Shown here: one piece after another, positions 33,966 through 54,509 of the stretch
Layout of the letters: every line of letters begins with the position of its first letter
How positions within the stretch are numbered: position 1 is the first letter of the stretch
Assembly: GCF_024385575.1 (NCBI RefSeq)
Contig: NZ_JANFMV010000004.1
Coordinates: forward strand, 283,944-347,943
DNA length: 64,000 nucleotides
Direction of reading: 5' to 3'
Source: Rhizobium sp. NRK18
GTDB taxonomy: Bacteria > Pseudomonadota > Alphaproteobacteria > Rhizobiales > Rhizobiaceae
The notes under the pieces: model-generated
Told to the model about the DNA's origin: nothing
Seen by the model: the letters and a program-made list of their open reading frames with translations, nothing else
Databases searched by the model: none
Program-made: the position numbers and the translations under genes

Positions 33966-34501
33966 CAGACCCCAGTCTGCCTCGCTCAACAGCGCTCTTG
34001 TTAGCCTAACTGCCCCTCGTGTCACAATCGCTTTCGCGGCGCAACGAACCTTGCGCCCTCAATTTCGCTCAACGCAGTTGAACCCTAGAAGTGAACGACC
34101 TCGGATTCATCGAAGCTTCCAACCTCGGACGAAGCAGCGCCAAAGCCCTTTCCCGAGTGCACTGTCACTTCAGCTGCTGCAGCCGGTACCAGTTGATTAC
34201 CCACCACTCTGAAATGAATATGGGAATGGCTCCTATCTCTTCCCGGCAGGCAATGGCCCGGCCAGGTCTCAAATTTTTCCCGACTTCCGTAACGACAAGG
34301 ACCCCCTGACGGCTGGCGCACTGAAGTGCAGCGCGTAGAGATGCAGGCGCATTAATGATATAAATCTCATATTTGAGATTTTTGTTGCGACCCCGGAATT
34401 TTTGTGAAAATCTGCAGGTCTTCCCGATGATCACGCGATCGAGGAGAACCACTCCCGATTGGCGACAGTTCCTTCGACGGTCAAGTTATGGAGATATAAG
34501 T
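33966..34501. other. Intergenic region between the LacI gene and the nucleoside operon
   Basis: 536 bases between divergent operons. No supported gene: open frames on both strands are short, without ribosome sites or recognisable domains. It holds promoters for the LacI gene to the left and the ABC/nucleoside operon to the right. A symmetric operator-like element lies at 34362-34381, about 120 bases before the ATPase start. Confidence 0.6.
34362..34381. promoter_or_regulatory. 20-bp operator-like palindrome before the nucleoside operon
   Basis: AAATCTCA-TATT-TGAGATTT: perfect 8-bp arms with a 4-base centre, in an AT-rich pocket. There is no regulator gene inside the downstream operon, so the binding protein would be encoded elsewhere. 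No U-run of terminator quality follows in either direction. Confidence 0.5.
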
Positions 34502-35275
34502 ATGGGGCATTCGTCGCGGATGATCGATATCGCGGGCGTACACAAAACATTCGTTGCGGATCACGGAACGGTCACCGCCCTTGAGCCGGTTACAATCTCG
34601 ATCCGTCAGGGTGAATTCATTTCCATTGTCGGCCCCTCCGGCTGCGGTAAATCCACCCTGCTTCGCTTGATCTCCGGACTTGACGCGGCGAGTGGCGGCA
34701 CAATCACGCTCGATGTGGCCGACCGTAAGCGACCGGTTGGCTTCGTGTTCCAAGAGCCGGTTCTTCTGCCCTGGAAAACCATTCTTGAAAACGTCCGTTT
34801 TCCGCTGGATACGGCCGGTGTCAGTCGTGTTCAAGCAGACAAAACTGCGCTCGACCTCATCAACATGGTTGGTCTTTCAGGTTTCGAAAAAGCACTGCCG
34901 CGTCAGCTTTCTGGTGGCATGCGTCAGCGTGCTGCGATTGCTCGCTCGCTATCTGATGATCCGCCGATCCTGCTGATGGACGAACCTTTCTCTGCCGTCG
35001 ATCTTCTCACCCGCGATACCTTGAACGACGAATTGCTGCGCATCTGGCAATCGACAGGCAAGACGATCCTGCTCGTCACCCACAGCGTGGAGGAAGCCGC
35101 CTATCTTGCCGACCGGGTAATGGTAATGACTGCACGCCCGGGCAAGTTGAAATGCGTGCATGACGTCAGTCTTGCACGTCCTCGCGGTGAGGAGACCAAG
35201 CTCGATCCCGCCTATCATGCGCTGGTCGCACAACTGCGCCGCGACTTGAGAGCGACTGGCGGGGAGGCCCACTGA
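34502..35275 (+). CDS. ABC transporter ATP-binding protein, nitrate/sulfonate/taurine (SsuB) class
   Basis: 257 residues without a TOBE domain, as usual for this class: Walker A GPSGCGKST, VFQEPVLLPWKTILENV (Q-loop), signature LSGGMRQRAAIARSL, Walker B ILLMDEPFSAVD, VTHSVEEAAYLADRV. ATG 34502 has GGAG 8 bases upstream; the longer frame has no domain. It is the first gene of a six-gene rightward operon and overlaps the permease start. It must serve both permeases of the operon, since no second ATPase is present. Confidence 0.9.
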   Translation: MGHSSRMIDIAGVHKTFVADHGTVTALEPVTISIRQGEFISIVGPSGCGKSTLLRLISGLDAASGGTITLDVADRKRPVGFVFQEPVLLPWKTILENVRFPLDTAGVSRVQADKTALDLINMVGLSGFEKALPRQLSGGMRQRAAIARSLSDDPPILLMDEPFSAVDLLTRDTLNDELLRIWQSTGKTILLVTHSVEEAAYLADRVMVMTARPGKLKCVHDVSLARPRGEETKLDPAYHALVAQLRRDLRATGGEAH

Positions 35276-36039
35276 TGGGAAGGCGATTGAGCGCTTGGGT
35301 CGATTATGCGGCAGCGCTCGGCACGCTGCTTGCTGTCTGGTGGATTGCCACCGGGCCAATGGCGCTGCCGACCTACCTCCTGCCTTCACCGAGCAAGACG
35401 TGGAATGCGCTGGTGACCATCGCGCTGAATGGCGAACTTTGGATCCATCTTGCCTTCACCCTGCAAAACATAATCCTCGGGCTCTTTCTCGGCTGCGTTG
35501 CCGGCGTGCTGATCGCCTATGTCATGACACGTTTCCCGAAACTCGCTATTTGGCTGGACGGGCCTCTGGTCATCCTCCAAACCGCACCGAAAATTGCACT
35601 TGCCCCACTCTTCGTCGTCTGGTTTGGTTTCGGTATCCTGTCCAAAATCGTCCTGATCTTCTCGCTCGTTTTCTTCCCTGTCTTTGTGGGGGCCGTTGCC
35701 GGCTTTCGCTCACTCGATTCCAAGATGAAAGATCTTTCGCGCCTGCTCGGCCTATCCGACCTTCAGCGCTTTCGGCAGATCGAACTGCCATCTGCCATGC
35801 CAGAGGTCTTCGTCGGTTTAAAGATCGGGGCGGTACAGGCGCTGGTCGGTGCCGTGCTCGCTGAATGGATGGCAGGAAAAGTCGGCATCGGATACCTGAT
35901 GACGTTCGCCGCAGCAACATACAAGACGCCGCTTCTATTCGCAGCGGTGCTGGTAACAGTGCTGCTTGGCCTTCTTTTGCATGTAGTGCTGACCGTATTG
36001 GAGAACCGGCTTCTCGCATGGAAGGGTGCTCAAAAATGA
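35275..36039 (+). CDS. ABC transporter permease, SsuC/TauC class (first of two)
   Basis: 254 residues, about six spans, with docking loop LDSKMKDLSRLLGLSDLQRFRQI. LLPSPSKTWNAL near residue 40 is the usual N-terminal marker of SsuC-type permeases. Its start overlaps the ATPase stop. Another, clearly different SsuC-like permease is encoded at 37831, so the channel may be a heterodimer instead of the common homodimer. Confidence 0.9.
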   Translation: MGRRLSAWVDYAAALGTLLAVWWIATGPMALPTYLLPSPSKTWNALVTIALNGELWIHLAFTLQNIILGLFLGCVAGVLIAYVMTRFPKLAIWLDGPLVILQTAPKIALAPLFVVWFGFGILSKIVLIFSLVFFPVFVGAVAGFRSLDSKMKDLSRLLGLSDLQRFRQIELPSAMPEVFVGLKIGAVQALVGAVLAEWMAGKVGIGYLMTFAAATYKTPLLFAAVLVTVLLGLLLHVVLTVLENRLLAWKGAQK

Positions 36040-36827
36040 CCAGCGCCGCCTTTCCCTGGAAGAATGGCCGTCCGCCACATCTGCCCTGCGGTCCCGGGGA
36101 TATCGCAGAAAATGTCCTGACTCCCGGAGATCCCGACCGGGTCGGTCTGCTGGCCGATATGCTCGAAGACGTCACCGATTTTGGCCGCAAGCGCGAATTT
36201 GCAGTCATTACCGGTACATATGAAGGTCAGCGTCTGACGATCTGCTCCACGGGCATCGGCGGTCCATCGACGGAAATCGCCCTCGTCGAACTCGCAATGC
36301 TTGGTGCCAAGCGCGTTATTCGAATCGGCGGCATGTCGGCACTTGTCGCAGAATACGAACCCGGCTCCTTTGTCGCAGTCGATCGCGCGATTGGCGACAC
36401 TGGAACTGCGCTGACATATCGCAAAGCAGGCGGCAAGGCGGTGGCGTCACCACACATTCTATCCGGCTTGATGGAGGCTGCATCTGAACTTGGCCTCACC
36501 TGCAGGCCCGGCATGGTCGCCTCCACGGACAGCTATTACCTCGGGCAAGACCGGCGTTATCGCCTAACGGGAGACGATCAGGATTTCGTCCTCGACGCTA
36601 TCGATCATGTCCAGGCTCTGGGCGCCATCGGCGTCGAGATGGAGAGCGAGATCACGATGACGGTCGGCGCAGCGATCGGCCTCGAAACCGGATGCCTTCT
36701 TGGCATCCATGGAAATCGCGCCACCGATGCGTGGCTTGATGACTACGAAAGCACTCAACGAAACCTTCTGCGAATAGCAGGAAGGGCATTTTCCTCCAAT
36801 AAACGGGAACTCAGGAGAAAATCATGA
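36036..36827 (+). CDS. Nucleoside phosphorylase, uridine phosphorylase (PNP/UDP family 1) type
   Basis: 263 residues. Family signature CSTGIGGPSTEIALVEL near residues 70-86, preceded by the phosphate-site TPGDPDR, and GVEMESEI near residue 197, which holds the ribose. The enzyme splits a nucleoside with phosphate into base and ribose 1-phosphate. It overlaps the permease stop by 4 bases (ATGA) and the next gene likewise, so it is embedded in the transporter operon. Uridine, or a purine nucleoside, is the likely substrate; the base cannot be told from sequence. ATG 36036 is chosen from that overlap. Confidence 0.87.
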   Translation: MTSAAFPWKNGRPPHLPCGPGDIAENVLTPGDPDRVGLLADMLEDVTDFGRKREFAVITGTYEGQRLTICSTGIGGPSTEIALVELAMLGAKRVIRIGGMSALVAEYEPGSFVAVDRAIGDTGTALTYRKAGGKAVASPHILSGLMEAASELGLTCRPGMVASTDSYYLGQDRRYRLTGDDQDFVLDAIDHVQALGAIGVEMESEITMTVGAAIGLETGCLLGIHGNRATDAWLDDYESTQRNLLRIAGRAFSSNKRELRRKS

Positions 36828-37828
36828 TGCATTTTCGCGTAACCACCGCCGCAAGTCTCGCCGCTCTCCTTACATCATCGATATTCGCGATGTCCGCCCA
36901 TGCGGCCGACAAGGTCGTCATGCAGATCGACGGTGCCGCAGTGCCGTTCTACGCGCCGCTTTATGCCGGAGTGGAAAATGGTGTATTCGAAAAGAACGGG
37001 ATCGAAGTGGAGTTTATCTACGCGGCCGCGGCCGATATCCTGACCAATATCGCTGCCGGAAATGTCGATTTCGGATTCCCAAATGGTGACGCGGTCGTTG
37101 CCGCTGCCGCCAATGGCCTGCCGGTAAAGGTCGTCCACACGACCTATCAGCGCGGCATCGGCGCCCTGATCGCCAAAGAGTCGAGTGGCATCAAGACCTA
37201 TGCTGATCTGAAAGGCAAGAAAGTTGCCGTGACCAGCCTGGCGAGCCCGAATTATCTGCAATTGCAGGTCGGGTTGCAACAGGCTGGCCTGTCCATCGAT
37301 GACGTCTCTGTCGAAGTGGTTGCCACTGGTGCCATCGTGCAGGCCCTACAGGCCGACCAAGTGGACGCAATAGTTTTCTCGGAACTGCGGAAGTACAACC
37401 TCGAGGCAGACGGCACCAAGGTTACAATGATCCTGTCGAATGACTTCCTGCCCTCGTTCGGCAACGTCGTCGTAACCAGCGACAAGAAGCTTTCGGAAAA
37501 TCCCGACCTGGTCAAGCGCTTCACCACCGCCGTCTCTCAATCCTATCAGTGGGTGATCGACGGCCATATCAACGAAGCTCTGGATATCGCGCTCGACAAG
37601 TATGCCCCAACCTGGCCAAAAGACCAGAAAGGCATCCTGACGACCGCTTTCGAACAGACCTTCGTTCCCTCCGTCTGGCAGAGCCCGCTCACAAAGGAAA
37701 AAGGTCTCGGGGCCGCCGACATGGCCGGCTGGCAGAAGAATGCCGACATCCTCGCCGAATACAAAGTTATCGACAGCGCTCCGAAGGCCGAAGACTTCGT
37801 CGTCGACCCTTCCATGATTGGTAAATAG
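36824..37828 (+). CDS. ABC transporter substrate-binding protein, NMT1/SsuA/ThiY-like
   Basis: 334 residues with a Sec signal ending AMSAHAAD. The mature core matches NMT1-type binding proteins: FYAPLYAGVENGVFEKNGIE, NVDFGFPNGDAVVAAAANG and KGKKVAVTS. Members bind sulfonates, nitrate, thiamine precursors and pyrimidines. AGGAG precedes ATG 36824. Between a nucleoside phosphorylase and a phosphopentomutase, a nucleoside ligand is the simplest reading, which would be an unusual class of receptor for it. Confidence 0.87.
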   Translation: MMHFRVTTAASLAALLTSSIFAMSAHAADKVVMQIDGAAVPFYAPLYAGVENGVFEKNGIEVEFIYAAAADILTNIAAGNVDFGFPNGDAVVAAAANGLPVKVVHTTYQRGIGALIAKESSGIKTYADLKGKKVAVTSLASPNYLQLQVGLQQAGLSIDDVSVEVVATGAIVQALQADQVDAIVFSELRKYNLEADGTKVTMILSNDFLPSFGNVVVTSDKKLSENPDLVKRFTTAVSQSYQWVIDGHINEALDIALDKYAPTWPKDQKGILTTAFEQTFVPSVWQSPLTKEKGLGAADMAGWQKNADILAEYKVIDSAPKAEDFVVDPSMIGK

Positions 37829-37830
37829 TC

Positions 37831-38574
37831 ATGTTACTGCGTGGCATCGCGGGTCTGTTCGCGACCCTCGTCATATGGACGGCAATCGTCTACCTGTTCA
37901 ATGTCCCGGCTTATCTACTGCCGGGACCAGTTGCGGTTTTCGATCGTATCGTCTTCCTGTTCGAGAATGCGAAACTCGCCCGGCATATTTGGGTGACACT
38001 GTCAGAAGTTATAGGAGGCTTCATCGCAGGAACACTCGTCGGCATCCTCGCCGGCGTGGTGTTCGCTTGGCTCCCAAGAGTGGAACGCTTTGCCACGCCT
38101 TTAATCCTGCTCCTACAGACCGCCCCGAAGATCGCGATTGCTCCTCTTCTTCTCTTGTGGTTGGGCATTGGCCCAACCCCAAAGATCGTGCTGATTGCGA
38201 TCGTCACCTTCTTCCCCGTGATGGCCGGGATGGTCACCGGCCTACGTTACGGCGAAGGCAGCTTTCGAGATTTGGCCGCCGTACTGAAGCTCAGCCCATG
38301 GCAGCGGTTTTGCCATATTGAGCTGCCTTCGGCGCTACCGTCGGTTCTTGCCGGCATGGCAGTCGCAACGACGCTCGCGATGACGGCTGCCGTCATCGGC
38401 GAACTGATTGGCGCCAACGAGGGGATCGGCTATCTCCTTTCCTCCGGCCAGGAGAACAGCGACACTGCGGTCGTTATCGGGATGGTCATGCTGCTGTCCC
38501 TGATCGGTTGGGCATTTTACGAAATCATCGAGCTTATACGGCGCCGTTCTCTAAGCCGCTTCCAGCTGTCTTGA
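37831..38574 (+). CDS. ABC transporter permease, SsuC/TauC class (second of two)
   Basis: 247 residues, about six spans; marker [13 protein letters not shown] near residue 32 and docking loop [28 protein letters not shown] near residues 146-173. It starts 3 bases after the binding-protein stop. It differs in sequence from the permease at 35275 throughout, so it is not a recent duplicate. Confidence 0.9.
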
Positions 38575-38581
38575 GACGTCC

Positions 38582-39763
38582 ATGACCCGTGTTTTCCTTT
38601 GTGTTCTTGACTCCGTCGGTTGCGGAGGCGCGCCTGATGCCTCCGCTTATGGCGACCACGGGGCAAATACTCTGCTGCACATTGCCGAAGCCTGTGCACG
38701 CGGCGAGGCTGAGGCCGGCAGGACCGGTGCCCTGGAACTCCCAAATCTCGATGGGCTCGGGCTTGGTGCGGCCATCAAGCTCGCCTCGGGCAATGTTGCG
38801 CCGGGACTCACTGCCCTCCCAAAGGCGCAGTGGGGCGTGGCTGAAGAGATTTCCCTCGGAAAGGATACTCAATCCGGACATTGGGAACTGGCTGGGTTGC
38901 CAGTAACTCGGGACTGGCACTATTTCCCGAAGACCGTTCCAGCCTTCCCCGAAGACCTGATGGAACAACTGATAGATCGCGCGAACCTCCCTGGTACGCT
39001 CGCCAACGTCCACGCCTCAGGCACCGAGGTGATCGACACTTTCGGCCTACAGCACATCGAAAGCGCAAAACCGATCGTTTATACCTCCGCCGACAGCGTC
39101 GTGCAGATCGCTGCTCATGAACATCACTTCGGACTACAGCGCTTGCTGGAGACCTGTCGCATAGCGGCTGAAATTTTCCATCCGCTGAATGTTGGCCGCG
39201 TGATTGCACGTCCCTTCGTCGGCGAGACCCCGGGCACCTTCAGCCGAACCGCCAACCGCAGGGATTTCGCCATCGCTCCACCGGATAGCACAATTTGTGA
39301 CCGGGTGATCGCCGCAGGTGGGGCGGTGCATGCGGTCGGGAAGATCGGCGACATTTTTGCCATGAAAGGCATTACGGATGTCTCCAAGGGTAAAGACGAT
39401 ATGGCGCTGTTTGATCATGTGCTCGACTGGTGTGATCGCGCTCGCTCCGGTGACCTGGTCTTCGCCAACTTCGTCGAGTTCGACAGCCTCTGGGGTCATC
39501 GCCGCGACGTCTCGGGTTATGCCCGCGCGCTGGAAACCTTTGACACGAGACTGCCGCAGTTGTTGGCGAAGCTGCGACCAGGCGACCTGCTTATCATCAC
39601 AGCCGACCATGGCAACGACCCGACCTGGCCCGGCACCGACCATACCCGCGAACGGGTGCCGGTGCTTGCAACCGGCCCCCATGTGCCCCCAAAAGCGTTG
39701 GGCCAGATTGCCTTCACGGATATTGCCAAAATGGTCGCCACCCATCTCGACTTGCGGGACTGA
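38582..39763 (+). CDS. deoB: Phosphopentomutase
   Basis: 393 residues of the alkaline-phosphatase-like metalloenzyme family: N-terminal [17 protein letters not shown] with the metal-binding Asp, the Thr nucleophile region in [23 protein letters not shown], and C-terminal metal sites [18 protein letters not shown]. The length is usual for DeoB. It turns ribose 1-phosphate or deoxyribose 1-phosphate into the 5-phosphate, the step after nucleoside phosphorylase at 36036. Last gene of the operon; converges on a LysR gene. Confidence 0.95.
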
Positions 39764-45144: not shown

Positions 45145-45522
45145 GGAGGGCCAGACCCTAAAGACGGGGCCGCTGATCCATGTCATCAGCCCCGAGAACT
45201 CCCACTGGGCGGGGCGGCAAAAGTGCCTGGAACGCTGCTCGATCCGGCGACCAAATACCAAGGGTTCGACGTTCGACAATTACGTCCCGGCGACCCAAGC
45301 CGCCCTCGACGGACAGGGAGTAATGCTCGGCTGGCGCTCTGTCACGGGGGAGTTGGCGCGGATGGAAGCTTAAGGGCATGGCTAGACGGTGAAATCGATC
45401 TCGGCACCGCCTACTATCTTATCGAATCCGAATGGCGCTCACCAGCGGCCGTCGTCTTCACGGAATGGCTTTACTCTCGCTACTCTCTTTCTTCTGCACC
45501 GGAGATACTCGAACGCGGTTAA
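45145..45522 (+). pseudogene. Decayed LysR (GcvA-like) regulator, C-terminal half
   Basis: Two adjacent frames together give the end of a GcvA-type LysR protein. From 45158 one frame reads LKTGPLIHVISPENSHWAG and later STFDNYVPATQAALDGQG then MLGWRSVTGELARM, then hits stops near 45370. The next frame continues with GSLRAWLDGEIDLGTAYYLI and ends at 45522. The DNA-binding half is missing. A one-base frameshift therefore broke a gene already truncated at its 5' end. Confidence 0.75.
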
Positions 45523-45750
45523 GGCAACGCCACCGCCTTCACTTATCCAGCCGCGCAAGCCAGAGATCCCCGATCGAGAGAAAGCCAATTCGGAACCTCG
45601 GTCTCCGTGTTTGGTTGACAGTTCACCAGAAAGTATTCGGTTCTCACTTGGGAAGGGTTGATCGCCGCTTCCATGGCCGCGAGAACGTTCCCCACATTTC
45701 TGAGAGCAGGATTTTTCCGATTGACGAATGCATCCAGGCATGGAAGTCTA

Positions 45751-45772
45751 TGAACAGGTTTGAACAGGTTCA
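45751..45772. promoter_or_regulatory. Tandem repeat with dyad, probable GntR/UTRA operator
   Basis: TGAACAGGTT occurs twice in exact tandem (45751-45760, 45761-45770), and the second copy continues into the perfect dyad TGAAC-AG-GTTCA (45761-45772). It ends 30 bases before the GntR start codon, where an autoregulatory site would be expected. The 228 bases before it (45523-45750) hold no gene I can support. Confidence 0.6.
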
Positions 45773-45802
45773 TTAAACAAGTTGATCCCAGGATGATGCG
45801 CG

Positions 45803-46519
45803 ATGAAAGTCAAACTTGAACCTGGCGTGGCCAAGCCACAGCAGATCGCCAGCGTGTTGGAAGAGGAAATCCGCTCCGGCAGACTGGCCTTCGGCGATCG
45901 CCTGCAGAGCGAGAACGAGCTTGTCCGGCGGTTTTCGGTGAGCCGCAATACGCTTCGCAAGGGATTGGAAGAACTAAACAGCCGCGGTCTCATCACCACC
46001 AAGGTCGGGATCGGCTCATTCGTGACCTTCAACGGAAAGACCATCGACGATGCAGCCGGCTGGTCGAGAGCCCTTGCCGATGCCGGAGCGCAGACCGAAA
46101 CGCGCGTCCTGCGGATAGAGATGCTGCAGGACCCCGACCTTGCGGAACAGCTTTCAATCAAAGACGACACCTTCATCGCCGTCGATCGCCTGCGCCGGCT
46201 GTCCGAGGGACAGGTTCCCGTCTCGCTCGAGCGGAGCCGTCTGCCGATGCTTCCGGAACTGGAGAGCGTCCCGCTAAGCGGCCTCAAGTCGGGCTCGCTG
46301 CGGGAGACATTGCGCGTCGCGGGGCTCATTCCGACGAACGGCGAAGAGTGGGCCGATATCGCCCTGCTGTCCGCAGACGATGCCGCCCTTCTCGAATGTG
46401 CCGAAGGTTCCGCCTTTTTGCGGACAAGACGCCTGTCGCGTAGCGCAGACGGCCGCCCGATCGAATATGTCACCAGCCTTTTGAACCCCACATATTTTGC
46501 ACTTCATCTGGAATTTTGA
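45803..46519 (+). CDS. GntR-family transcriptional regulator, HutC/UTRA subfamily
   Basis: 238 residues. Winged helix PQQIASVLEEEIRSGRLAFG and ENELVRRFSVSRNTLRKGLEEL, then an UTRA ligand domain (ETRVLRIEMLQDPDLAEQL, VDRLRRLSEGQVPVSLERS, RTRRLSRSADGRPIEYVTSLL). UTRA domains bind small ligands such as phosphosugars or amino-sugar derivatives. It is the first gene of a rightward seven-gene module and overlaps closely with the next gene (3 bases between stop and ATG). Fructoselysine and related operons have the same regulator type beside a PfkB kinase. Confidence 0.9.
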   Translation: MKVKLEPGVAKPQQIASVLEEEIRSGRLAFGDRLQSENELVRRFSVSRNTLRKGLEELNSRGLITTKVGIGSFVTFNGKTIDDAAGWSRALADAGAQTETRVLRIEMLQDPDLAEQLSIKDDTFIAVDRLRRLSEGQVPVSLERSRLPMLPELESVPLSGLKSGSLRETLRVAGLIPTNGEEWADIALLSADDAALLECAEGSAFLRTRRLSRSADGRPIEYVTSLLNPTYFALHLEF

Positions 46520-46521
46520 GC

Positions 46522-47556
46522 ATGACGGTATCCCGCGAGAAGATGGTCGATAGAGCAGTAGCGGCACTGACAGGCGGCGCAATCGGCGACGCCATGGGAA
46601 TGCCGACACAACTTCTCTCGCCGCAGCGGATTGCCGAAATCTACGGGTACGTCGAGAGCTTTGTCGCGCCGAGCGCCGACCACCCAGTTTCCCGGGGCCT
46701 TGCGGCCGGTACGATCACCGACGACACGGAGCAGACCCTGCTTCTTGGCGACGTTCTTCTCCAGTCCAAAGCCGGTTTCGATCACAGACTGTGGATCGAT
46801 GCGCTGCTGTCCTGGGAAGAGAGCATCCGCGCCCGTGGCGGTTATGATCTCCTCGGCCCTTCGACCAAACGCGCCATCGACGCGATCAATGCCGGCGTTC
46901 CGCCGGAACAAGCAGGCCGATATGGCGATACGAACGGTGCGGCCATGCGCATAGCACCCGCCGGCATCATGCTGCCGCCGTCAAGCGAACTATTGCAGAC
47001 CGTTGCCGAGACGTGCCGCTCGACCCACAACACCTCGATCGCCATTGCCGCCGCGGCGGCCGTCGCCACCGTCGTCAGCTGCGGGCTGGACGGCGCTGGG
47101 TGGCGTGAAGCCATACCGTCCGCACTGGAAGCCGCGAAGGCTGCGGAAAGCGAAGGAGCCTGGATTGCCGGCGGACGCATTTCTGCGCGGATCGCCTGGG
47201 CTGTGTCCCTGGCCGAACAGGCCCGAACCGCAGCGGATATCCAAGCAATGTTCGATCTCATCGGCACCAGCGTCGCCTCGCAGGAATCCGTTCCGGCCGC
47301 CTTCGCGGTGCTGGCCCTGGCTGATGGCAATTGCTGGAAGGCGGCCGTCATCGCCGCCAATCTCGGCGGCGACACCGACACGATCGGCGCCATCGCCTGC
47401 TCCATGGCGGGCGCCTGCGATGGTCTCTCGTCGGTCGCGGACGACTTGATTGCCGCTCTCAAGGGGTTCGATCCGGAGAAGGCCCGCTCACTGGCCGAGG
47501 CCCTTGTCGATCGTCGCCTGGCACTGGCCGAGGGCGGGAAGGTGCGGCATGGCTGA
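46522..47556 (+). CDS. ADP-ribosylglycohydrolase family protein
   Basis: 344 residues. All metal motifs of the DraG/ARH fold are present: GGAIGDAMGMP near residue 15, ITDDTEQTLLLGDVL near 63 (Thr-Asp-Asp), and NLGGDTDTIGAIACSMAGA near 272 (Asp-x-Asp). The family cuts N- or O-glycosidic bonds of ribose derivatives through two Mg or Mn ions. Here it sits between a ligand-sensing regulator and a PfkB sugar kinase ahead of a transporter, which argues for a catabolic role on a small N-glycoside and against reversal of protein ADP-ribosylation. ATG 46522 is chosen over an upstream TTG. Confidence 0.88.
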   Translation: MTVSREKMVDRAVAALTGGAIGDAMGMPTQLLSPQRIAEIYGYVESFVAPSADHPVSRGLAAGTITDDTEQTLLLGDVLLQSKAGFDHRLWIDALLSWEESIRARGGYDLLGPSTKRAIDAINAGVPPEQAGRYGDTNGAAMRIAPAGIMLPPSSELLQTVAETCRSTHNTSIAIAAAAAVATVVSCGLDGAGWREAIPSALEAAKAAESEGAWIAGGRISARIAWAVSLAEQARTAADIQAMFDLIGTSVASQESVPAAFAVLALADGNCWKAAVIAANLGGDTDTIGAIACSMAGACDGLSSVADDLIAALKGFDPEKARSLAEALVDRRLALAEGGKVRHG

Positions 47557-48499
47557 ACCCCGGCTATTTCATATCGGCAGCGCCGTCGTCGATTACGTCT
47601 ATGAGATCGACCGATTGCCGATGCCCGGCGAAGACCTCTTGGCGTCAGGCTTTTCGGCCCTGCCGGGCGGAGGCTTCAACATGCTGGTCGCGGCGCATCG
47701 AAGCGGCCTCCACTGCGCCTATGCCGGCAAGATCGGGTCGGGACCCGTAGGCGCGCTCCTCGCAGCCGCATTCCAGGCGGAAGGCATCGATTGCATCCAG
47801 ACCAGAGCAGCCGGCACGGACACCGGCACCTGTGTGGTGCTGGTCACCGCAGACGGGGAAAGAACCTTCGTCTCCCGACAGGGGGCAGAGGCCCTCCTAG
47901 AGGCCGACGATCTTCGATCCATCGGCTCGAAAGCCGGAGACTGGTTCTTCACCTCCGGATACACGCTCGCCTATCCGGAATGCCGCGACACCCTGGCAGA
48001 ATTCATAGAAGGCCTGCCGGGCGATGTGACCTTCATGTTCGATCCCACCGGCGTGGTCGACCATATCCCGGAGGATATCCTGGCACGGGTCATGAAGCGC
48101 GCCGACTGGCTGACCTGCAACCGTGCGGAAGCAACGGTAATCGCCGGTGAAGCCGGTCTGGAGGATCTGGCGGCAAGGCTGCTTGAACGATCCTGTCCGC
48201 ATGCGAAAGGCGTGATCATACGCTGTGGGGGCGATGGCGCGCTGCTTGCGTTGAGAAACGAGCAACCCGCCTTTGTTCCCGCCTTCCGGGTCCACGTGGT
48301 GGACACCAATGGCGCCGGTGATGTGCATTCCGGCGCGATGGCCGCAGCGCTTGCCCGCAATGAGCCGCCCGTGAATGCCCTGCGCATTGCCAATGCCGCT
48401 GCCGCCATCTCGACAACCCGCCGCGGCGGCTCGAATGCCCCATACAGACAAGAGGTCGAAGAATTCCTGCAACGTGCCGGGGAACCCATAATCGACTGA
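47549..48499 (+). CDS. PfkB-family carbohydrate kinase
   Basis: 316 residues of the ribokinase fold: sugar-binding LPGGGFNMLVAAHRSG near residue 40, DPTGVVDHIP, NRAEATVI near 193, and the C-terminal VVDTNGAGDVHSGAMAAAL with the catalytic Asp and anion hole near residue 254. ATG 47549 overlaps the glycohydrolase stop by 8 bases, showing translational coupling. It probably phosphorylates the sugar released by, or the compound presented to, the glycohydrolase. FrlD-type fructoselysine kinases are in the same family, so a glycated amine is an alternative substrate. Confidence 0.9.
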   Translation: MAEPRLFHIGSAVVDYVYEIDRLPMPGEDLLASGFSALPGGGFNMLVAAHRSGLHCAYAGKIGSGPVGALLAAAFQAEGIDCIQTRAAGTDTGTCVVLVTADGERTFVSRQGAEALLEADDLRSIGSKAGDWFFTSGYTLAYPECRDTLAEFIEGLPGDVTFMFDPTGVVDHIPEDILARVMKRADWLTCNRAEATVIAGEAGLEDLAARLLERSCPHAKGVIIRCGGDGALLALRNEQPAFVPAFRVHVVDTNGAGDVHSGAMAAALARNEPPVNALRIANAAAAISTTRRGGSNAPYRQEVEEFLQRAGEPIID

Positions 48500-48542
48500 C
48501 AAAGAAGAAGAACAGGCACATCAAATCTGAGAGGAAGCAGAC

Positions 48543-49595
48543 ATGAAATCCTATTCGATACTGGCGACCACCGCCATCATGACAGTCTTGATGCAATCCG
48601 GAGCAATGGCAGCCGACGTCCATGTTCTCAACTGGAAGGGCTATGGGACCGACGAACCGTGGGCCGTGGAAGCCTTCGAAAATGCCACCGGCAACAAGGT
48701 CATCAACGATTACTTCAATTCCGAACAGGAAATGCTGACCAAGCTGCGGACCAATCCCGGCCTCTACGACGTCGTGATGATCAATGCTGCCTTCAATGAC
48801 CAGGCGACGTTGGAAGGACTGATCCAGCCGATCGACACCAGCAAGATCGCCAATGCGGCGAACATCAGCGAGGAAAAGGCCAAGTCGCCGCTGCTCAACC
48901 ACGACGGCCAGACCTATGGCGTGCCGTGGGTCTGGGGACTGACCTCCATCGCCGTCAACGACAAGGCCTTCGACAAGACCCCGACCTCCATCCAGGTGAT
49001 GTGGGATGAAGCCCACAAGGGGCGTGTGGTCTTGCGCGACGACGCCCTCGAAGCCATTCAGTTCGGCGCCATTGCGACCGGGCAGAACATCAACGACATC
49101 AAGGACATGGATGCAGTAAAAGCCAAGCTTGCGTCCCTGATGCCACAGATCCGCACGTTCTGGAGTGCGGAGAACGACTGGAACCAGATGGTTGCCGCCA
49201 ACCAGATCGACGTCGGTACCTACTGGAGCGGTTCGGCGTCGCGCGCCAAGAAGAACTTCGGCCTTCCGGTCACCTTCGTCGTTCCGGAAGAAGGGGCGGT
49301 CGGCTGGCTCGATGCCTTCTCCATCCCCAAGGGATCGAAAAACGTCGAGGGCGCGGAAGCCTTCATCAACTACATGATCGATCCGACGTTCTACGTGGAA
49401 TGGGACAACAAGGTCGGCGCACCGGTTTCGGCCAATACCGCGGCCGTTGCCGAACTGCCGGAAGACGCGTTCAACCGAAAGGTCATGGGAGACCCGCAGG
49501 TCGCAGCGCGCATCCAGTTCCAGGCGCCCGTCTCGGATGCCGACCGCGAGAAGTACCTGCAGATCTGGCAGGAACTGAAGGTCAACGTGAAGTAA
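48543..49595 (+). CDS. ABC transporter substrate-binding protein, PotD/polyamine type
   Basis: 350 residues with a Sec signal (MTVLMQSGAMAADV). The mature start VHVLNWKGYGTDEPWAVEAF and later GVPWVWGLTSIAVN, VGTYWSGSASRAKK and WLDAFSIPKGSKN are typical of PotD/PotF-like receptors. The class binds polyamines and also sugar-amine conjugates such as opines in rhizobia. First gene of the transporter block; 43 bases after the kinase stop with a GAGAGGAAG ribosome site. Confidence 0.9.
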   Translation: MKSYSILATTAIMTVLMQSGAMAADVHVLNWKGYGTDEPWAVEAFENATGNKVINDYFNSEQEMLTKLRTNPGLYDVVMINAAFNDQATLEGLIQPIDTSKIANAANISEEKAKSPLLNHDGQTYGVPWVWGLTSIAVNDKAFDKTPTSIQVMWDEAHKGRVVLRDDALEAIQFGAIATGQNINDIKDMDAVKAKLASLMPQIRTFWSAENDWNQMVAANQIDVGTYWSGSASRAKKNFGLPVTFVVPEEGAVGWLDAFSIPKGSKNVEGAEAFINYMIDPTFYVEWDNKVGAPVSANTAAVAELPEDAFNRKVMGDPQVAARIQFQAPVSDADREKYLQIWQELKVNVK

Positions 49596-49620
49596 CCACG
49601 ATCGGAGGAAGGAGCTCGGC

Positions 49621-50493
49621 ATGGGCGCATCACAATCCCGGCTCGGGCATCGTTCGACGGTAAATGCCGCCGCGCCGCTGCTCCTTCCCGCCTATCTCTG
49701 GCTGATGGTGGCAATCTTCCTGCCATTGTCGGCCATGGTCTTCTTCAGCTTTGCCAGCGACATGCCCTTCATGGGCAAGCCCTGGTCGCTGACATTGTCG
49801 AACTACGCCGATTTCTTTTCGAGCGACGTCTACGCAAAGCTTCTGGTGTCGTCGCTGCGCCTCGCCTTCGAGGTCACGGTCTGGTGCATCATTCTCGGCT
49901 TCCCGTCAGCCTATGTGCTGGCCAAGGTGTTCAAGGGCAGAACACGGGAAGCGATCTTCCTACTTGTCATCCTCCCCTTCTGGAGCAACGGCCTCGTCCG
50001 CATCTTCTCCTGGGCGATGGTGCTGCGCAGCGGCGGCATACTGGATACGGCGCTGAACGCTATCCTGCCATTCAAGGTCAATATCGACCTGATGTATTCC
50101 TATCCGGCCGTCATCATCGGCCTCGTGCATTCCTATGTGCCCTATATCGTGCTCACCTGCTACCTCAGCATCCAGGCGATCGATGACAGCCTGATCGAGG
50201 CGGCACGGTCGCTCGGCGCATCGCGCTTCAGGATTTTGAGGCGCATCATTCTCCCGCTGTCGCTGCCGGGCATCATCGCCGGAGCCGTTCTCGTCTTCGT
50301 GCCGGTGATCGGCTCGTTCATGGAGCCGCGCATCCTCGGAGGACGGACCGGTACCTTCTACGGGACCGTCATTGAAGACCAGTTCGTCGCCGTCTTCAAC
50401 TGGCCGCTGGGAGCCGCCCTCTCCTTCATCCTGCTGGCTCTCGTCCTAGCCATCCTGGCATTGGCCTCCCCCGTCATGAGGAAAGCCGCATGA
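49621..50493 (+). CDS. ABC transporter permease, PotB type
   Basis: 290 residues, six spans; docking loop SLIEAARSLGASRFRILRRI followed by LPLSLPG near residues 190-218. It starts 25 bases after the binding-protein stop and overlaps the second permease by 4 bases. Confidence 0.92.
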   Translation: MGASQSRLGHRSTVNAAAPLLLPAYLWLMVAIFLPLSAMVFFSFASDMPFMGKPWSLTLSNYADFFSSDVYAKLLVSSLRLAFEVTVWCIILGFPSAYVLAKVFKGRTREAIFLLVILPFWSNGLVRIFSWAMVLRSGGILDTALNAILPFKVNIDLMYSYPAVIIGLVHSYVPYIVLTCYLSIQAIDDSLIEAARSLGASRFRILRRIILPLSLPGIIAGAVLVFVPVIGSFMEPRILGGRTGTFYGTVIEDQFVAVFNWPLGAALSFILLALVLAILALASPVMRKAA

Positions 50494-51281
50494 GCAAGAC
50501 CACGCGCTTCCTCAACTCCATCGGGCGCCTCTATGTCGGCCTTCTCCTGGCCTTCCTCTATCTGCCGATCGTCATCATGGGTCTGATGTCGTTCAACGCC
50601 TCGCCCTTCTACCAGTTGCCGTTAAAGTGGTCGACGACATGGTATCGGGCGCTGTCGCAAGACGGCCAGCTGATCGGCGCCGCCCTCAACAGCCTGGAGA
50701 TCGCCGTCATCACCACGATCGTCGCGACGGTCATCGGTACGGCCGCATCGCTGGCCTTCTTCCGCTACGAATTCAGGGGCAAGAAGCTGCTTCAGGCGCT
50801 GCTGCTGCCGCCGATCGCCATTCCGTGGCTGATCACCGGCACGGCGATGCTCGTCTTCTTTTACGGCATTGGCATAGGCCGCGGCCTGCACGCCATCATA
50901 CTCGGCCATGTGGCGCTCGCCCTGCCCTATGTCATCATCGTGATCAATGCCCGCCTCCAGACCTTCGCGCCAGAGCTTGAGGAGGCGGCCCGCTCGCTTG
51001 GCGCCAGCCAGTGGCAGATCACCCGCAGGGTGACCCTGCCCTATCTTGCACCGGGCGTCGTCGCCGGCGGACTTTTCGCCTTCGCCGTTTCCTTCGACCA
51101 GTTCGTCGTCTCCTATTTCCTGGCGACCCCGGGGCAGACGACGCTTCCGGTCGAAATCTACGCAGCGATCCGCAAGGGCTTCACGCCCGAGATCAACGCG
51201 GTGTCGACGATCATCATCGTCATGTCCATGGTCCTGATGCTGGTGACCGCCCGCTTCTACAAATTCGGAGGAAATAGCTGA
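50490..51281 (+). CDS. ABC transporter permease, PotC type
   Basis: 263 residues, six spans; docking loop ELEEAARSLGASQWQITRRV then LPYLAPG near residues 160-185. Starts with ATGA overlap on the previous gene and ends overlapping the ATPase start, so the three genes are translated together. Confidence 0.92.
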   Translation: MSKTTRFLNSIGRLYVGLLLAFLYLPIVIMGLMSFNASPFYQLPLKWSTTWYRALSQDGQLIGAALNSLEIAVITTIVATVIGTAASLAFFRYEFRGKKLLQALLLPPIAIPWLITGTAMLVFFYGIGIGRGLHAIILGHVALALPYVIIVINARLQTFAPELEEAARSLGASQWQITRRVTLPYLAPGVVAGGLFAFAVSFDQFVVSYFLATPGQTTLPVEIYAAIRKGFTPEINAVSTIIIVMSMVLMLVTARFYKFGGNS

Positions 51282-52336
51282 TGGCCAGCGTCGAGGTGAA
51301 AAACCTGTCACGAAGCTTTGGCATCTACAAGGCGCTCGACGATATCTCGGTACGCTTCAAGGATGGCGGTTTCTACGCACTTCTCGGCCCGTCCGGCAGC
51401 GGCAAGACCACGCTGTTGCGGATGATCGCCGGCTTCGACTATCCCGATACCGGCCACATCGAGATGAACGGCGAAAGCGTCGAGAGGGTTCCCCTGGAAA
51501 AGCGCAACATCGGCATGGTGTTCCAGAACTATGCGCTGTTTCCCAACATGACGGTGTTCGACAATGTCGCCTTCGGACTCAGCGTGCGCGGCGTCGCGCG
51601 CGAGGAGATGCGAGCGAAGGTCATGAACGCCCTCGACCTCGTGCAACTCGGCAAACTCGAAGGCCGCAAGCCGCACCAGCTCTCCGGCGGCCAGCGCCAG
51701 CGTGTGGCGCTCGCGCGCGCGATCGTCATCAATCCTCGCGTCCTGCTTCTCGACGAACCGCTCGGAGCACTGGACAAGGCCCTGCGTCTCGACATGCAGG
51801 TCGAATTGAAGCGCATTCAAAGGGAAATCGGCATTACCACCGTCTTCGTCACCCATGACCAGGAAGAAGCCCTGACCATGGCGGATCGCATCGGCCTCCT
51901 GAAGGATGGAAGACTGATCGAAGAAGGACGGCCGGAAGACATCTACAACTGCCCGAAGACCCTGTTTGCCGCGACCTTCCTCGGGGACGCCAATATTTTC
52001 GAGGGCGACTGGCAAGACGGTGATATCATGCTAGCCGACGGGCGTGCCGTGTCTGTCGCCGCCGGCCGCGAAACACAATCCGGAAAAATTCGCTGCGCCG
52101 TTCGCCCGGAGCGGATCCGGATCGTCTCGGCTGAACAGCCGAGATTGGACAACGTGCTGGACGGCCGCATCGAGCGCAGGCTCTTTGCCGGCAACAGCAC
52201 GACGCTGTTCGTCAATCACAACGGCCGCGAAATCCGCGTCGGCCTGCCCAACACCGGATCGGTGAGCCACGACGACGGCGAAGCCGTCACGCTGACATGG
52301 TCCCGCGAAAGCACCATACCGGTGACGGCGGCCTAG
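51281..52336 (+). CDS. ABC transporter ATP-binding protein, PotA type
   Basis: 351 residues: Walker A GPSGSGKTT, VFQNYALFPNMTV, signature LSGGQRQRVALARA, Walker B VLLLDEPLGALDKAL, VTHDQEEALTMAD, and a TOBE region (FAATFLGDANIFEGDW, CAVRPERIRI). Last gene of the module; a decayed IS6 element follows 125 bases downstream. Confidence 0.93.
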   Translation: MASVEVKNLSRSFGIYKALDDISVRFKDGGFYALLGPSGSGKTTLLRMIAGFDYPDTGHIEMNGESVERVPLEKRNIGMVFQNYALFPNMTVFDNVAFGLSVRGVAREEMRAKVMNALDLVQLGKLEGRKPHQLSGGQRQRVALARAIVINPRVLLLDEPLGALDKALRLDMQVELKRIQREIGITTVFVTHDQEEALTMADRIGLLKDGRLIEEGRPEDIYNCPKTLFAATFLGDANIFEGDWQDGDIMLADGRAVSVAAGRETQSGKIRCAVRPERIRIVSAEQPRLDNVLDGRIERRLFAGNSTTLFVNHNGREIRVGLPNTGSVSHDDGEAVTLTWSRESTIPVTAA

Positions 52337-52461: not shown

Positions 52462-53099
52462 CGCCTCTGAGCGCATTTCGCGATGATGCCTGGACTAAAT
52501 GTCGTGTCGGGGGATGTGGAACAGATTGGCGATTGGATCATGAATGGAGACAAACCGCTGCAAATAGCGTTGAGACTTGAGATGCTTCACGATCCGCTCC
52601 CGTCGCCGGATTGGCTGGTCGGAGTTCTCCGCTAGATTGTTCAAGTCCTTATGCGAACGGTGTTCGACACCGGGCATAATCTCGCACTTTGCAGCGACGT
52701 AAGATAGAAGCTTGTCAGTGATCATAACCCGCGGCGCTCGGCCCTGGCTCTTCAAGAGCTTGCTCATCAAGGGCTTGGCCGCCTCGGCATTGCGGCGGCG
52801 AATCTCGCTGGCGAAGGCGCCTCCAAACTTCTCTGACCACAGCCGGACCGTCTGGTGCAATTCAATAATGCCTCGGGCCGCCAGAGTATCCTCGACGATT
52901 CGCAAGTTGAGAGGAAAACGGAAATAAAGCCAGACGGCATGGGCGATGATCTCGGCGGGAAAGCGATGGCGGCGATAAGCGGGTCGTGGTCTGTCATGGC
53001 CCGTCATCCCACATCGAAATCCTGGTGATCTGAATGATCGGGTGCTCGTCACTGTTAACATACCTACTTGGCACAGCCCGGATGGCAAATTTCAGAGCC
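52462..53099 (-). mobile_element. Defective IS6-family insertion sequence
   Basis: Contains the IS6-type transposase frame at 52495-53007. Tentative ends: GCCTCTGAGCGCATTT starting at 52463 and, on the other strand, GGCTCTGAAATTTGCC starting at 53099. These share the GGCTCTG-like opening of IS6-family inverted repeats but are imperfect. The implied length of about 640 bp is short for the family (about 800), consistent with the internal deletion in the transposase. No target duplication could be confirmed. Confidence 0.5.
52495..53007 (-). pseudogene. IS6-family transposase with an in-frame internal deletion
   Basis: 170 residues from ATG 53007. The N-terminal YRRHRFPAEIIAHAVWLYFRF, VEDTLAARGIIELHQTVRLW and the C-terminal ITDKLLSY, MPGVEHRSHKDLNNLAENS, RFVSIHDPIANLF are classic IS6-family blocks. 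The segment that should lie between, with HLDEV (first catalytic Asp) and WRAVDQDG, is absent: the chain runs from EIRRR straight into RNAEAAKPLMSKLL. Loss of the first DDE residue makes it inactive. The remnant at 23310-23507 keeps part of the region deleted here. Confidence 0.82.
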
Positions 53100-53429
53100 C
53101 GGCGAAACATAGCAGCCGGCGCGCACTGGTGAGGATCGCTTAAGATCATCGTGCTATTTCAAACCCTTGCGAGAGGCGGGAGCAGTGTCCCGCTGCGAAG
53201 GACTGTGGGCGCATGGCGATCGATCTTCCGGAGATCTTCAGCCAGGCCAGCGTGGGCTTACGCGGAGACGACGGACGGATCAGGTGCAGCCGACAAAAAT
53301 CCAATGAGCAGTTATCTCGAAAAATATGCGCATAACCGCACGCCATGTCTCTACAGCAATACGCCCGATAATCTTGCATTATCGTTCTTTATTGTCATTA
53401 TAGAGAAAATCAGCTCTCCGAGGCCGCAA
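53100..53429. other. Region between the IS6 element and the recombinase gene
   Basis: 330 bases. The recombinase frame stays open leftward to 53151, but without a ribosome site or domain. A perfect hairpin CGATAAT-CTTGC-ATTATCG (53366-53384) followed by TTCTTTATT lies 46 bases before the chosen start. It could be an operator, a rightward terminator or part of a recombination site. Nothing else is recognised. Confidence 0.45.
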
Positions 53430-54509
53430 ATGCCGGAAAACGATCGCTATCCGTACTCTGCTCCGTCTCTCGGCACGGCGGCGGATGATCATTTGCAGGA
53501 TTCCGGGTTGTCGGGTGGAGCTCCGGGCCATCTGGCGCCGCTGGTCGAGCGCGCCCGCGGCTACGTTGAAGCCTCAAGCTCGGCCAATACGCAGCGCGCC
53601 TATGCGGCCGACTGGAAGCATTTTGCCGGTTGGTGCCGGCGTCAGGGACTGTCTCCCCTCCCCCCGGATGTGCAGACCGTCGGGCTCTACATCACCGCCC
53701 TGGCGTCCGGCGAAGCCGCGCCCCGCGCCCGGGCGAGCTCGGTTGCCACCGTCGAGCGACGGCTGTCGGCATTATGCTGGAACTACACGCAGCGCGGGCT
53801 CCTGCTCGACCGCCGCGACCGCCATATCGCAACCGTGCTTGCCGGCATTCGCAATCGTCATGCAGCACCCCCGCGCCAGAAGGAAGCAATCCTACCCGAG
53901 GAGCTGATCGCCATGGTCGAGACGCTCGACAGGGGCACGCTTCGGGGTCTGCGCGATCGCACCATGCTTCTGATCGGCTTTGCCGGCGGCCTGCGCCGCT
54001 CGGAAATCGTCGCGCTCGACTGCGGCCGCGACCAGACGGAGGATGGCGGTGGCTGGATCGAGGTCTTCGACAAGGGAATGCTGGTGACGCTGCGCGGCAA
54101 GACCGGCTGGCGCGAGGTCGAGATCGGCCGCGGCTCCTCCGACCTCACCTGCCCCGTCCATGCCGTCGAGACCTGGCTGAAGCTTGGCAGGATATCTCAT
54201 GGTCCCCTCTTCCGCCGCGTCACCGGTCGCGGCAAGGAGGTCGGACCCGAAAGGCTAAAGGATCAGGAAATCGCCCGCCTCGTCAAGAAGACCGTGCTCG
54301 CCGCCGGCATTCGCGGCGAGCTGCCGGAGGCCGAACGCGTAAGGCTATTCTCCGGCCATTCGCTGCGCGCCGGCCTTGCCTCCTCGGCGGAAGTCGACGA
54401 GCGCTATGTGCAGAAGCAGCTCGGCCATACGTCAGCGGAAATGACCCGCCGCTACCAGCGCCGGCGCGACCGCTTCCGCGTCAACCTGACGAAAGCGGCA
54501 GGACTTTAG
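53430..54509 (+). CDS. Tyrosine-type site-specific recombinase/integrase
   Basis: 359 residues from ATG 53430. N-terminal SAM-like core-binding domain (SSSANTQRAYAADWKHFAGWCRRQGL is its usual opening, about residues 40-65) and a catalytic domain with Arg in GFAGGLRRSEIVAL near 189, HSLRAGLAS near 310 (H-x-x-R) and the nucleophile Tyr in TSAEMTRRYQRR near 341. All catalytic residues are intact. Similar stand-alone recombinases occur on rhizobial megaplasmids. No tRNA or attachment site was found beside it, so it may act as a resolvase or mobilise DNA elsewhere. It converges on the E1-like gene with 12 bases between. Confidence 0.9.
   Translation: MPENDRYPYSAPSLGTAADDHLQDSGLSGGAPGHLAPLVERARGYVEASSSANTQRAYAADWKHFAGWCRRQGLSPLPPDVQTVGLYITALASGEAAPRARASSVATVERRLSALCWNYTQRGLLLDRRDRHIATVLAGIRNRHAAPPRQKEAILPEELIAMVETLDRGTLRGLRDRTMLLIGFAGGLRRSEIVALDCGRDQTEDGGGWIEVFDKGMLVTLRGKTGWREVEIGRGSSDLTCPVHAVETWLKLGRISHGPLFRRVTGRGKEVGPERLKDQEIARLVKKTVLAAGIRGELPEAERVRLFSGHSLRAGLASSAEVDERYVQKQLGHTSAEMTRRYQRRRDRFRVNLTKAAGL

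Follow-up and report, generated by a model that had tools for sequence, protein, structure and literature searches.

Among the described systems closest to the locus analysed here are the STM4065-4066-4067 genes of Salmonella, the yegTUVW genes of Escherichia coli and the PotABCD spermidine importer. One report (PMC3161100) ascribes aminoimidazole riboside kinase activity to STM4066 and places it in one operon with STM4067, a putative ADP-ribosylglycohydrolase gene. YegW, the regulator of the E. coli set, is described as single-target in another (PMC10819704), and no function of yegTUVW was found in the open-licence literature searched. We studied a 64,000-nucleotide stretch of Rhizobium sp. 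NRK18 (contig NZ_JANFMV010000004.1, positions 283,944 to 347,943; hereafter the window), in which a unit of seven open genes occupies positions 45803-52336 of the + strand. It encodes a GntR/UTRA regulator, a DraG-fold hydrolase, a PfkB-family kinase and a PotD-type ATP-binding cassette (ABC) importer, all co-directional, with overlaps or short gaps between the genes, and laid out as a single rightward unit at the positions given by the original prediction, an earlier reading made from the letters of this DNA.

We propose that this operon imports and degrades a small cationic or zwitterionic N-riboside. A pyridine nucleoside, nicotinate or nicotinamide riboside, is the likeliest ligand, and we give this proposal about an even chance of being right; a cationic N-glycoside of the nicotinamide-like type, one of several candidates put forward earlier, is the best fit. 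In this model the pyridinium ring is held by the aromatic cage of the PotD-like receptor and the riboside enters through the ABC importer. Its sugar would then be phosphorylated by the PfkB kinase, probably while the riboside is still intact, and cleavage of the N-glycosidic bond by the DraG-fold enzyme would yield pentose phosphate and nicotin(am)ate; the UTRA protein would keep the unit repressed as long as the ligand is absent. We infer the ligand, the order of the reactions and the regulation. That the DraG-fold enzyme serves small-molecule N-glycoside catabolism is well supported by conservation and context. Among the open-licence matches listed, subscription journals lying outside the search, there was no published description of such a pathway.

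The regulator gene (45803-46519, +; PF07702 63.9 bits, PF00392 55.4 bits) is followed by the gene of the DraG-fold hydrolase, a member of the ADP-ribosylglycohydrolase family (46522-47556, +; PF03747 201.8 bits, cut-off 26.2), which probably starts at ATG 46522, with TTG 46516 as the alternative. The PfkB-family kinase (47549-48499, +; PF00294 148.8 bits) has an ATG at 47549 that fits the family, the first TTG in the open reading frame list being at 47450, and this start overlaps the end of the hydrolase gene by 8 bases. The metal motifs TDDT and DTDT, already read as complete, are invariant across the 14 rows of our hydrolase alignment (A1), as is GAGDxHxG across the 11 rows of the kinase alignment (A2). 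The importer comprises a PotD-like periplasmic receptor (48543-49595, +; PF13416 109.7 bits), whose closest solved chains are PotD structures (8y5h, E 2e-44; 1pot, E 1e-43), two PF00528 permeases, one PotB-like (49621-50493, +; PotB model 193.8 bits, under its cut-off of 348) and one PotC-like (50490-51281, +; PotC model 221 bits, under its cut-off of 326), and an ATPase of the PotA subfamily with a TOBE domain (51281-52336, +; TIGR01187 364.5 bits, cut-off 355.6; PF08402). Curated models assigned broad families and rejected named enzymes, with the ATPase passing one subfamily model (PotA); the kinase, for example, reached 147.1 bits with the ribokinase equivalog TIGR02152 (cut-off 299.65).

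The arrangement is strongly conserved. A scan of one genome per species over 84,980 species returned 249 hydrolase relatives. The 80 best of them were retained for comparison; being the closest to the window and mainly Mesorhizobium, they are not an even sample. The order UTRA-hydrolase-kinase-receptor is retained in 80/80 loci and all seven genes are present in 78, the other two (L025 and L051) ending at contig ends, so the arrangement is not due to chance. One further locus (L068) is cut inside the last gene, and matches are split in four (L006, L021, L055, L072). Identities to the window proteins are 67–77% for the UTRA regulator, 61–72% for the hydrolase, 48–67% for the kinase and 72–88% for the receptor. 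The commonest gene clusters clearly beyond the seven occur in 24 of the 80 loci; gene calling was rough and mixed frames in this high-GC DNA, so these clusters are used as a negative hint only.

For the Rhizobiaceae, the family of the window, an evenly drawn set of 297 genomes was searched with the hydrolase profile and for the receptor; these searches scored only some candidates per genome, so absence is not proof. The hydrolase profile (E 1e-20) matched 29 genomes, 26 of them at E ≤3e-106 and three more weakly (G548, G615, G462). The receptor (E 1e-60) was found in 40 genomes, 26 with at least 57% identity and 15 with 45–51%, one genome belonging to both groups. Receptors of at least 57% identity and hydrolases at E ≤3e-106 are confined to the same 26 genomes, with starts 2.0–2.1 kb apart in 26/26. 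The enzymes are thus conserved with the receptor, a link on which the original prediction depended. Distribution is patchy: 26/297 in the Rhizobiaceae, and 30/398 for hydrolase matches across the phylum (E 1e-20). In a protein search, 6619 of 7999 scored candidates were relatives of the hydrolase at E 1e-10.

Outside this group the hydrolase keeps company with other kinds of uptake protein. The hydrolase-kinase pair, for which a neighbourhood survey had been suggested, occurs with a NupG-type permease in E. coli yegTUVW, Pantoea and Vibrio, with an NCS1 'cytosine' permease in Paraburkholderia, Caballeronia, Lactobacillaceae and some genomes of the E. coli family, and with a GPH-type symporter in loci L190, L191, L193 and L194 as judged by eye, or in seven rows as judged by similarity. 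The hydrolase without a PfkB gene nearby accompanies a beta-glucoside phosphotransferase system (PTS) in Listeria and Enterococcus. A hydrolase tree of 80 rows requires the importer type to have changed at least six times, counting only rows whose importer was recognised; it was built by a quick method, has long branches among distant rows and a few rows that repeat the same genome. Its rows are the window, 16 of the best-80 loci and other loci, with L153 dropped as having no match and L092 excluded as a fragment; at the limits of the script, the importer went unrecognised in 12 rows and a kinase match was lacking in 15.

Because the hydrolase sits elsewhere with NupG-type, NCS1, GPH-type or PTS transporters, small-molecule N-glycoside catabolism is favoured over protein de-ADP-ribosylation, in line with the earlier placement of this enzyme in a transport and catabolic unit. 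That it de-ADP-ribosylates proteins and merely shares an operon with polyamine uptake is scarcely credible. Its family resemblance to DraG and ARH3 speaks for such a role, but the DraG equivalog TIGR02662 gave 81.7 bits against a cut-off of 337.05 and the Tri1 ADP-ribosylarginine hydrolase model NF041672 gave 56.1 against 490, and the co-occurrence with receptor and kinase is strict while transporters are swapped. We set this role aside on the two failed models and the importer changes in the tree.

Members of the family also stand in other surroundings. More distant hydrolases adjoin other ABC importers in L158 (8099-14818), L159, L160 and L250. A Yersinia frederiksenii plasmid (L251, 4234-10810) carries a row of genes for a GntR regulator, the hydrolase, a SIS-domain protein, a carbohydrate kinase, a phytase-like protein and UshA, a version with a periplasmic nucleotidase, and on a Klebsiella plasmid (L252, 1065-6788) the hydrolase and a GntR regulator accompany mannose-type PTS subunits and two amidohydrolases, with no PfkB annotation.

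Nicotinate-degradation (nic) genes lie near the operon in six loci with four gene arrangements (L234, L235, L236 with L237, L008, L087 and the Burkholderia stagnalis locus L083/L254), an observation that is new here. The complete operon has them as neighbours in Mesorhizobium RMAD-H1 (L008), B. stagnalis (L083, L254) and three Rhizobiaceae genomes, these last three cases being related and two of them of one genus. The distance between nicX and the hydrolase gene is about 4.6 kb in L234 and L235 and 22 kb in L236/L237. L234 reads nicC, nicB, an iron-sulfur subunit gene (nicA-like), a MarR gene, nicE, nicD, nicX and nicF, then a sodium/solute-symporter-like gene (146.5 bits, cut-off 184) and the seven operon genes. 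The genes ahead of the unit in Pantoea dispersa carry the annotations 2,5-dihydroxypyridine 5,6-dioxygenase, FAD-dependent monooxygenase, alpha/beta hydrolase, Asp/Glu racemase, isochorismatase family and MFS transporter, which together are the parts of a nic cluster. These Pantoea genes and their rhizobial counterparts served as queries, and the nic names rest in part on the annotated Pantoea genes and, for two of them, on solved structures. The NicX query, taken from L224 and sharing 90% identity with its L234 counterpart, finds the solved structure 7cn3 of 2,5-dihydroxypyridine 5,6-dioxygenase (E 6e-96), and NicC from the same locus, L224, finds 5eow, a solved 6-hydroxynicotinate 3-monooxygenase (E 5e-186). 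NCBIfam gave no nic gene a name; its hits were to broad families (FAD, molybdopterin, iron-sulfur and symporter), all under their cut-offs. In Lactobacillus plantarum, genes for a nicotinate phosphoribosyltransferase and a nicotinamidase-like protein adjoin one copy of the hydrolase-kinase pair.

The counts over the Rhizobiaceae draw that follow ignore kinship between genomes in every p value. A close nicX (at least 74% identity) is present in 18/297 genomes, among them 5 of the 26 with the operon (Fisher p 0.013) and 13 of the 40 with either the operon or the sister receptor introduced below (p 3.8e-9). When all 35 genomes with a nicX-like gene are counted (E 1e-50, down to 34% identity), the overlap is 8/26 operon genomes (p 0.006). 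A family sample of the E. coli kind gave nicX in 6/149 genomes, the hydrolase in 47/149 and the two together in 5, an overlap (p 0.012) that is confounded by the tiny genomes in the sample.

Several observations weigh against a pyridine riboside as the substrate. Only three of the five Rhizobiaceae genomes with operon and nicX have both within 22 kb, two of them sharing a genus, and in the other two (G392 and G513) they lie on different contigs; uniform placement would give three of five within 22 kb with an estimated probability of 7e-6, a figure that is an underestimate, given the relatedness of the genomes and the tendency of catabolic genes to cluster. Plasmids are a place where catabolic operons cluster, and nicX occurs on 201 plasmid records. 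Among the 80 best-relative loci, of which up to 9 kb was examined (12 being shorter), nic genes are found in one, with nothing beyond a NicB-like match of 24% in L051. At E 1e-50, no nicX match was obtained in the window genome. Hydrolase and nicX are at least 265 kb apart in the four genomes of the E. coli-like family that have both on one contig; two Pantoea plasmids differ, with nic genes in L087 and none in L086; and NAD-salvage neighbours accompany one of three Lactobacillaceae copies and neither of the others. The Burkholderia-type family, with the hydrolase in 1/180 genomes (E 1e-60) and nicX in 41, is uninformative. As most copies examined are not adjacent to nic genes and the window genome gives no nicX match at that threshold, these genes are not part of the operon core, and they may instead mark the fate of the freed base.

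A further point on the same side is that ADP-glucose is the effector of the homologous E. coli regulator according to PMC10819704, where YegW represses yegTUV and ADP-glucose loosens its binding to DNA. Read in this way, the unit would act on ADP-glucose or tune glycogen, which we consider very unlikely; in the surroundings of the operons that were read we noticed no glycogen gene, none having been searched for.

Another link between this kind of importer and nicotinate comes from the receptors that are 45–51% identical to that of the window. Each of these sister receptors belongs to a complete importer of this type, but the hydrolase is missing there. A close nicX is present in 8 of the 15 genomes with a sister receptor (p 1.7e-7), and the overlap is 9/15 when all 35 nicX-like genomes are counted (p 5e-6), kinship again ignored; the sister importer lies within 15 kb of nicX in 8/8 genomes carrying both. 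Ten sister loci (L220-L229) were read: genes for MGH1/GH63-like proteins occur in seven, for GH106-like proteins in eight, for one type of isochorismatase-family protein in six and for NicB-like or other nic proteins in six, and L223 is without glycosidase-like, isochorismatase-family or nic genes. The GH106 match of the sister-locus protein tested is below the cut-off (25.2 against 29), and the isochorismatase-family protein could not be named more narrowly. One locus, L149, combines regulator, hydrolase, kinase and importer with a GH63-like gene. The hydrolase type and the sister glycosidase type could represent two routes to sugar conjugates of nicotinate.

As to the enzymatic steps, the original prediction had the bond cut first and the sugar phosphorylated afterwards, and this order now appears less favoured than phosphorylation first. 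STM4066 is reported to act on aminoimidazole riboside, so a kinase of such a pair works on an intact N-riboside, and the PTS version, which has no PfkB gene nearby, imports and phosphorylates at once, suggesting that a phosphorylated glycoside can serve as substrate for the hydrolase. For the STM4066 activity PMC3161100 cites its reference 56; the original work is reportedly that of Dougherty and Downs in 2003. Profile A2 finds structure 1tyy, labelled 'putative sugar kinase' in the search and presumably that aminoimidazole riboside kinase, at 108.9 bits, and several ribokinase chains score higher.

These kinase data bear on a further possibility, that the substrate is another N-riboside, such as aminoimidazole riboside or a modified nucleoside, and that the proximity of nic genes reflects the clustering of unrelated catabolic operons. 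We hold this to be possible, with a probability well short of even. The activity reported for STM4066 and the match to 1tyy are consistent with it, nucleosides or bases are fitting cargo for the NupG-type and NCS1 partners, and most copies examined have no nic neighbours. On the other hand, nic proximity in four arrangements, together with the 8/8 of the sister importer, is hard to obtain by chance, and 1tyy is outscored by several ribokinase chains.

The receptor pocket was compared with that of PotD in 104 operon receptor rows (at least 55% identical to the window, 91 distinct). In PotD, the spermidine carboxylates are E36, E171 and D257 according to PMC4096761. W34, Y37, D168, E171, W229, W255 and D257 are unchanged in 91/91 distinct operon receptors, and E36 is replaced by G, Y85 by A and Y293 by A in all 91, with T35 replaced by K in 89 and by Q in two. 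Two of the three carboxylates are therefore kept and E36 is lost; with T35 changed to K, this means that one of three amine contacts to spermidine is gone and a positive charge is gained near the cage. Thirteen further rows (11 distinct: ten sister receptors and L149) all have G at E36 and keep W34, D168, W229 and D257, and E171 is kept only in L149. Judged from its residues, the pocket would suit a ring cation with an anionic or polyol part, for example nicotinate riboside. The earlier description of the transporter as polyamine-type holds as a family name; spermidine uptake was set aside, given G at E36 in every distinct receptor.

The same pocket retains D168, E171 and D257 in 91/91 distinct receptors, which is compatible with an N-glycosylated amine or guanidine as the substrate, either ribosyl-arginine-like or a glycated amine, and ARH-fold enzymes are known to split ADP-ribosyl-arginine. 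Both a ribosylated guanidino compound and a glycated amine had been proposed originally. We regard such a substrate as improbable: the neighbours of the loci read included no gene noticed as catabolic for amines or guanidines, none having been specifically searched for, and amines are poor cargo for the NupG-type and NCS1 partners. The kinase reaches only 21.4 bits with the fructoselysine 6-kinase model NF007321, far under its cut-off of 247, and a fructoselysine-type pathway was set aside on that score.

Regulation of the putative pyridine-riboside operon appears to be local. The 8-mer TGAACAGG is present in 80/81 regions upstream of the regulator (the window and the 80 loci), and a 33-base motif with consensus ATTGAACAGGAtTATACAGGTTCAcTGAACAGG is likewise present in 80/81, being absent from L038. 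The search pattern itself dictated the first two ACAGG units of this motif and left the third free. The window copy (45749-45781, +), three ACAGG/ACAAG direct repeats 5' of the regulator gene, looks operator-like. A pattern of its 24-base core with up to three mismatches matches once in the 4.5-Mb genome, against none in the control. Among 33 listed stretches, the motif is found only in the window (and its copy L165), L008, L082 and, weakly, L236, and not in NCS1, NupG-type or sister loci. A consensus promoter scan found none, with a mean of 1.7 in shuffled sequences. The natural reading, by analogy with YegW, is that the UTRA protein is a local single-target regulator. Regulators of Caballeronia and Paraburkholderia are 53% and 51% identical to that of the window despite a different importer.

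Directly downstream of the operon lie a piece of an IS240-type DDE transposase gene (52498-53088, -) and a phage-integrase-family gene (53151-54509, +), hinting at lateral gain. Just 5' of the operon (45150-45520) are broken frames that by eye resemble the end of a LysR-type regulator gene. Between 40000 and 58000 of the window, G+C content rises from 0.52–0.56 upstream (40–46 kb) to 0.59–0.67 from the operon onward. A metalloenzyme-superfamily protein resembling the phosphopentomutase DeoB (38582-39763; PF01676) closes a rightward NMT1/THI5-type ABC importer set (34373-39763); it was considered as a pathway member and set aside, as it lies 6 kb upstream with other genes between.

More tentatively, and with appreciably less confidence than for the operon itself, a widespread branch of the DraG/ARH fold may be devoted to pyridine-riboside catabolism, and not to protein de-ADP-ribosylation, kinase first and hydrolase second, with lineage-specific importers and feeding nicotinate degradation in some lineages. 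It might act on alpha anomers, as ARH enzymes prefer alpha-linked ribosides. If so, E. coli yegTUVW and Salmonella STM4065-4067 would gain a function, the unassigned E. coli operon would have a candidate substrate, and the misleading family name 'ADP-ribosylglycohydrolase' would give way to a testable small-molecule function. Soil and plant-associated bacteria would own a dedicated route for vitamin B3-type ribosides, and two parallel importers, of the hydrolase and the glycosidase type, would feed nicotinate breakdown.

Compared with known systems, the operon shares with E. coli yegT-yegU-yegV-yegW an adjacent GntR/UTRA regulator (23% identical), PF03747-type hydrolase (33%), PfkB kinase (34%) and uptake protein, but has an ABC importer where E. 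coli has a NupG-type permease, and the E. coli regulator gene is on the other strand. In E. coli, thiM and thiD adjoin yegTUVW (L091, 8613-10198). With Salmonella STM4065-4066-4067 it shares a kinase and an ADP-ribosylglycohydrolase family protein in one operon, the kinase there being reported to act on a riboside; loci of that type (L190-L195) differ in having a GPH-type importer, as judged both by eye and by similarity, and their hydrolases are 28–31% identical to the best query. The PRD regulator-PTS-hydrolase unit of Listeria and Enterococcus, presumably bvrABC, likewise places a hydrolase of the same family (34% identical in Listeria) in an uptake operon, but takes up its substrate by PTS and has no PfkB kinase annotated nearby. 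PotABCD has the same four subunits, and its receptor aligns over its length with that of the window, which nevertheless reaches only 167.5 bits with the PotD model NF007048 (cut-off 582) and has lost E36 and Y293. The nic clusters with a sister PotD-type importer have receptors that likewise carry G at E36 and retain most aromatic-cage residues; they differ in that no family hydrolase or PfkB kinase was matched beside the sister importer, and many carry MGH1/GH63-like, GH106-like and isochorismatase-family proteins instead.

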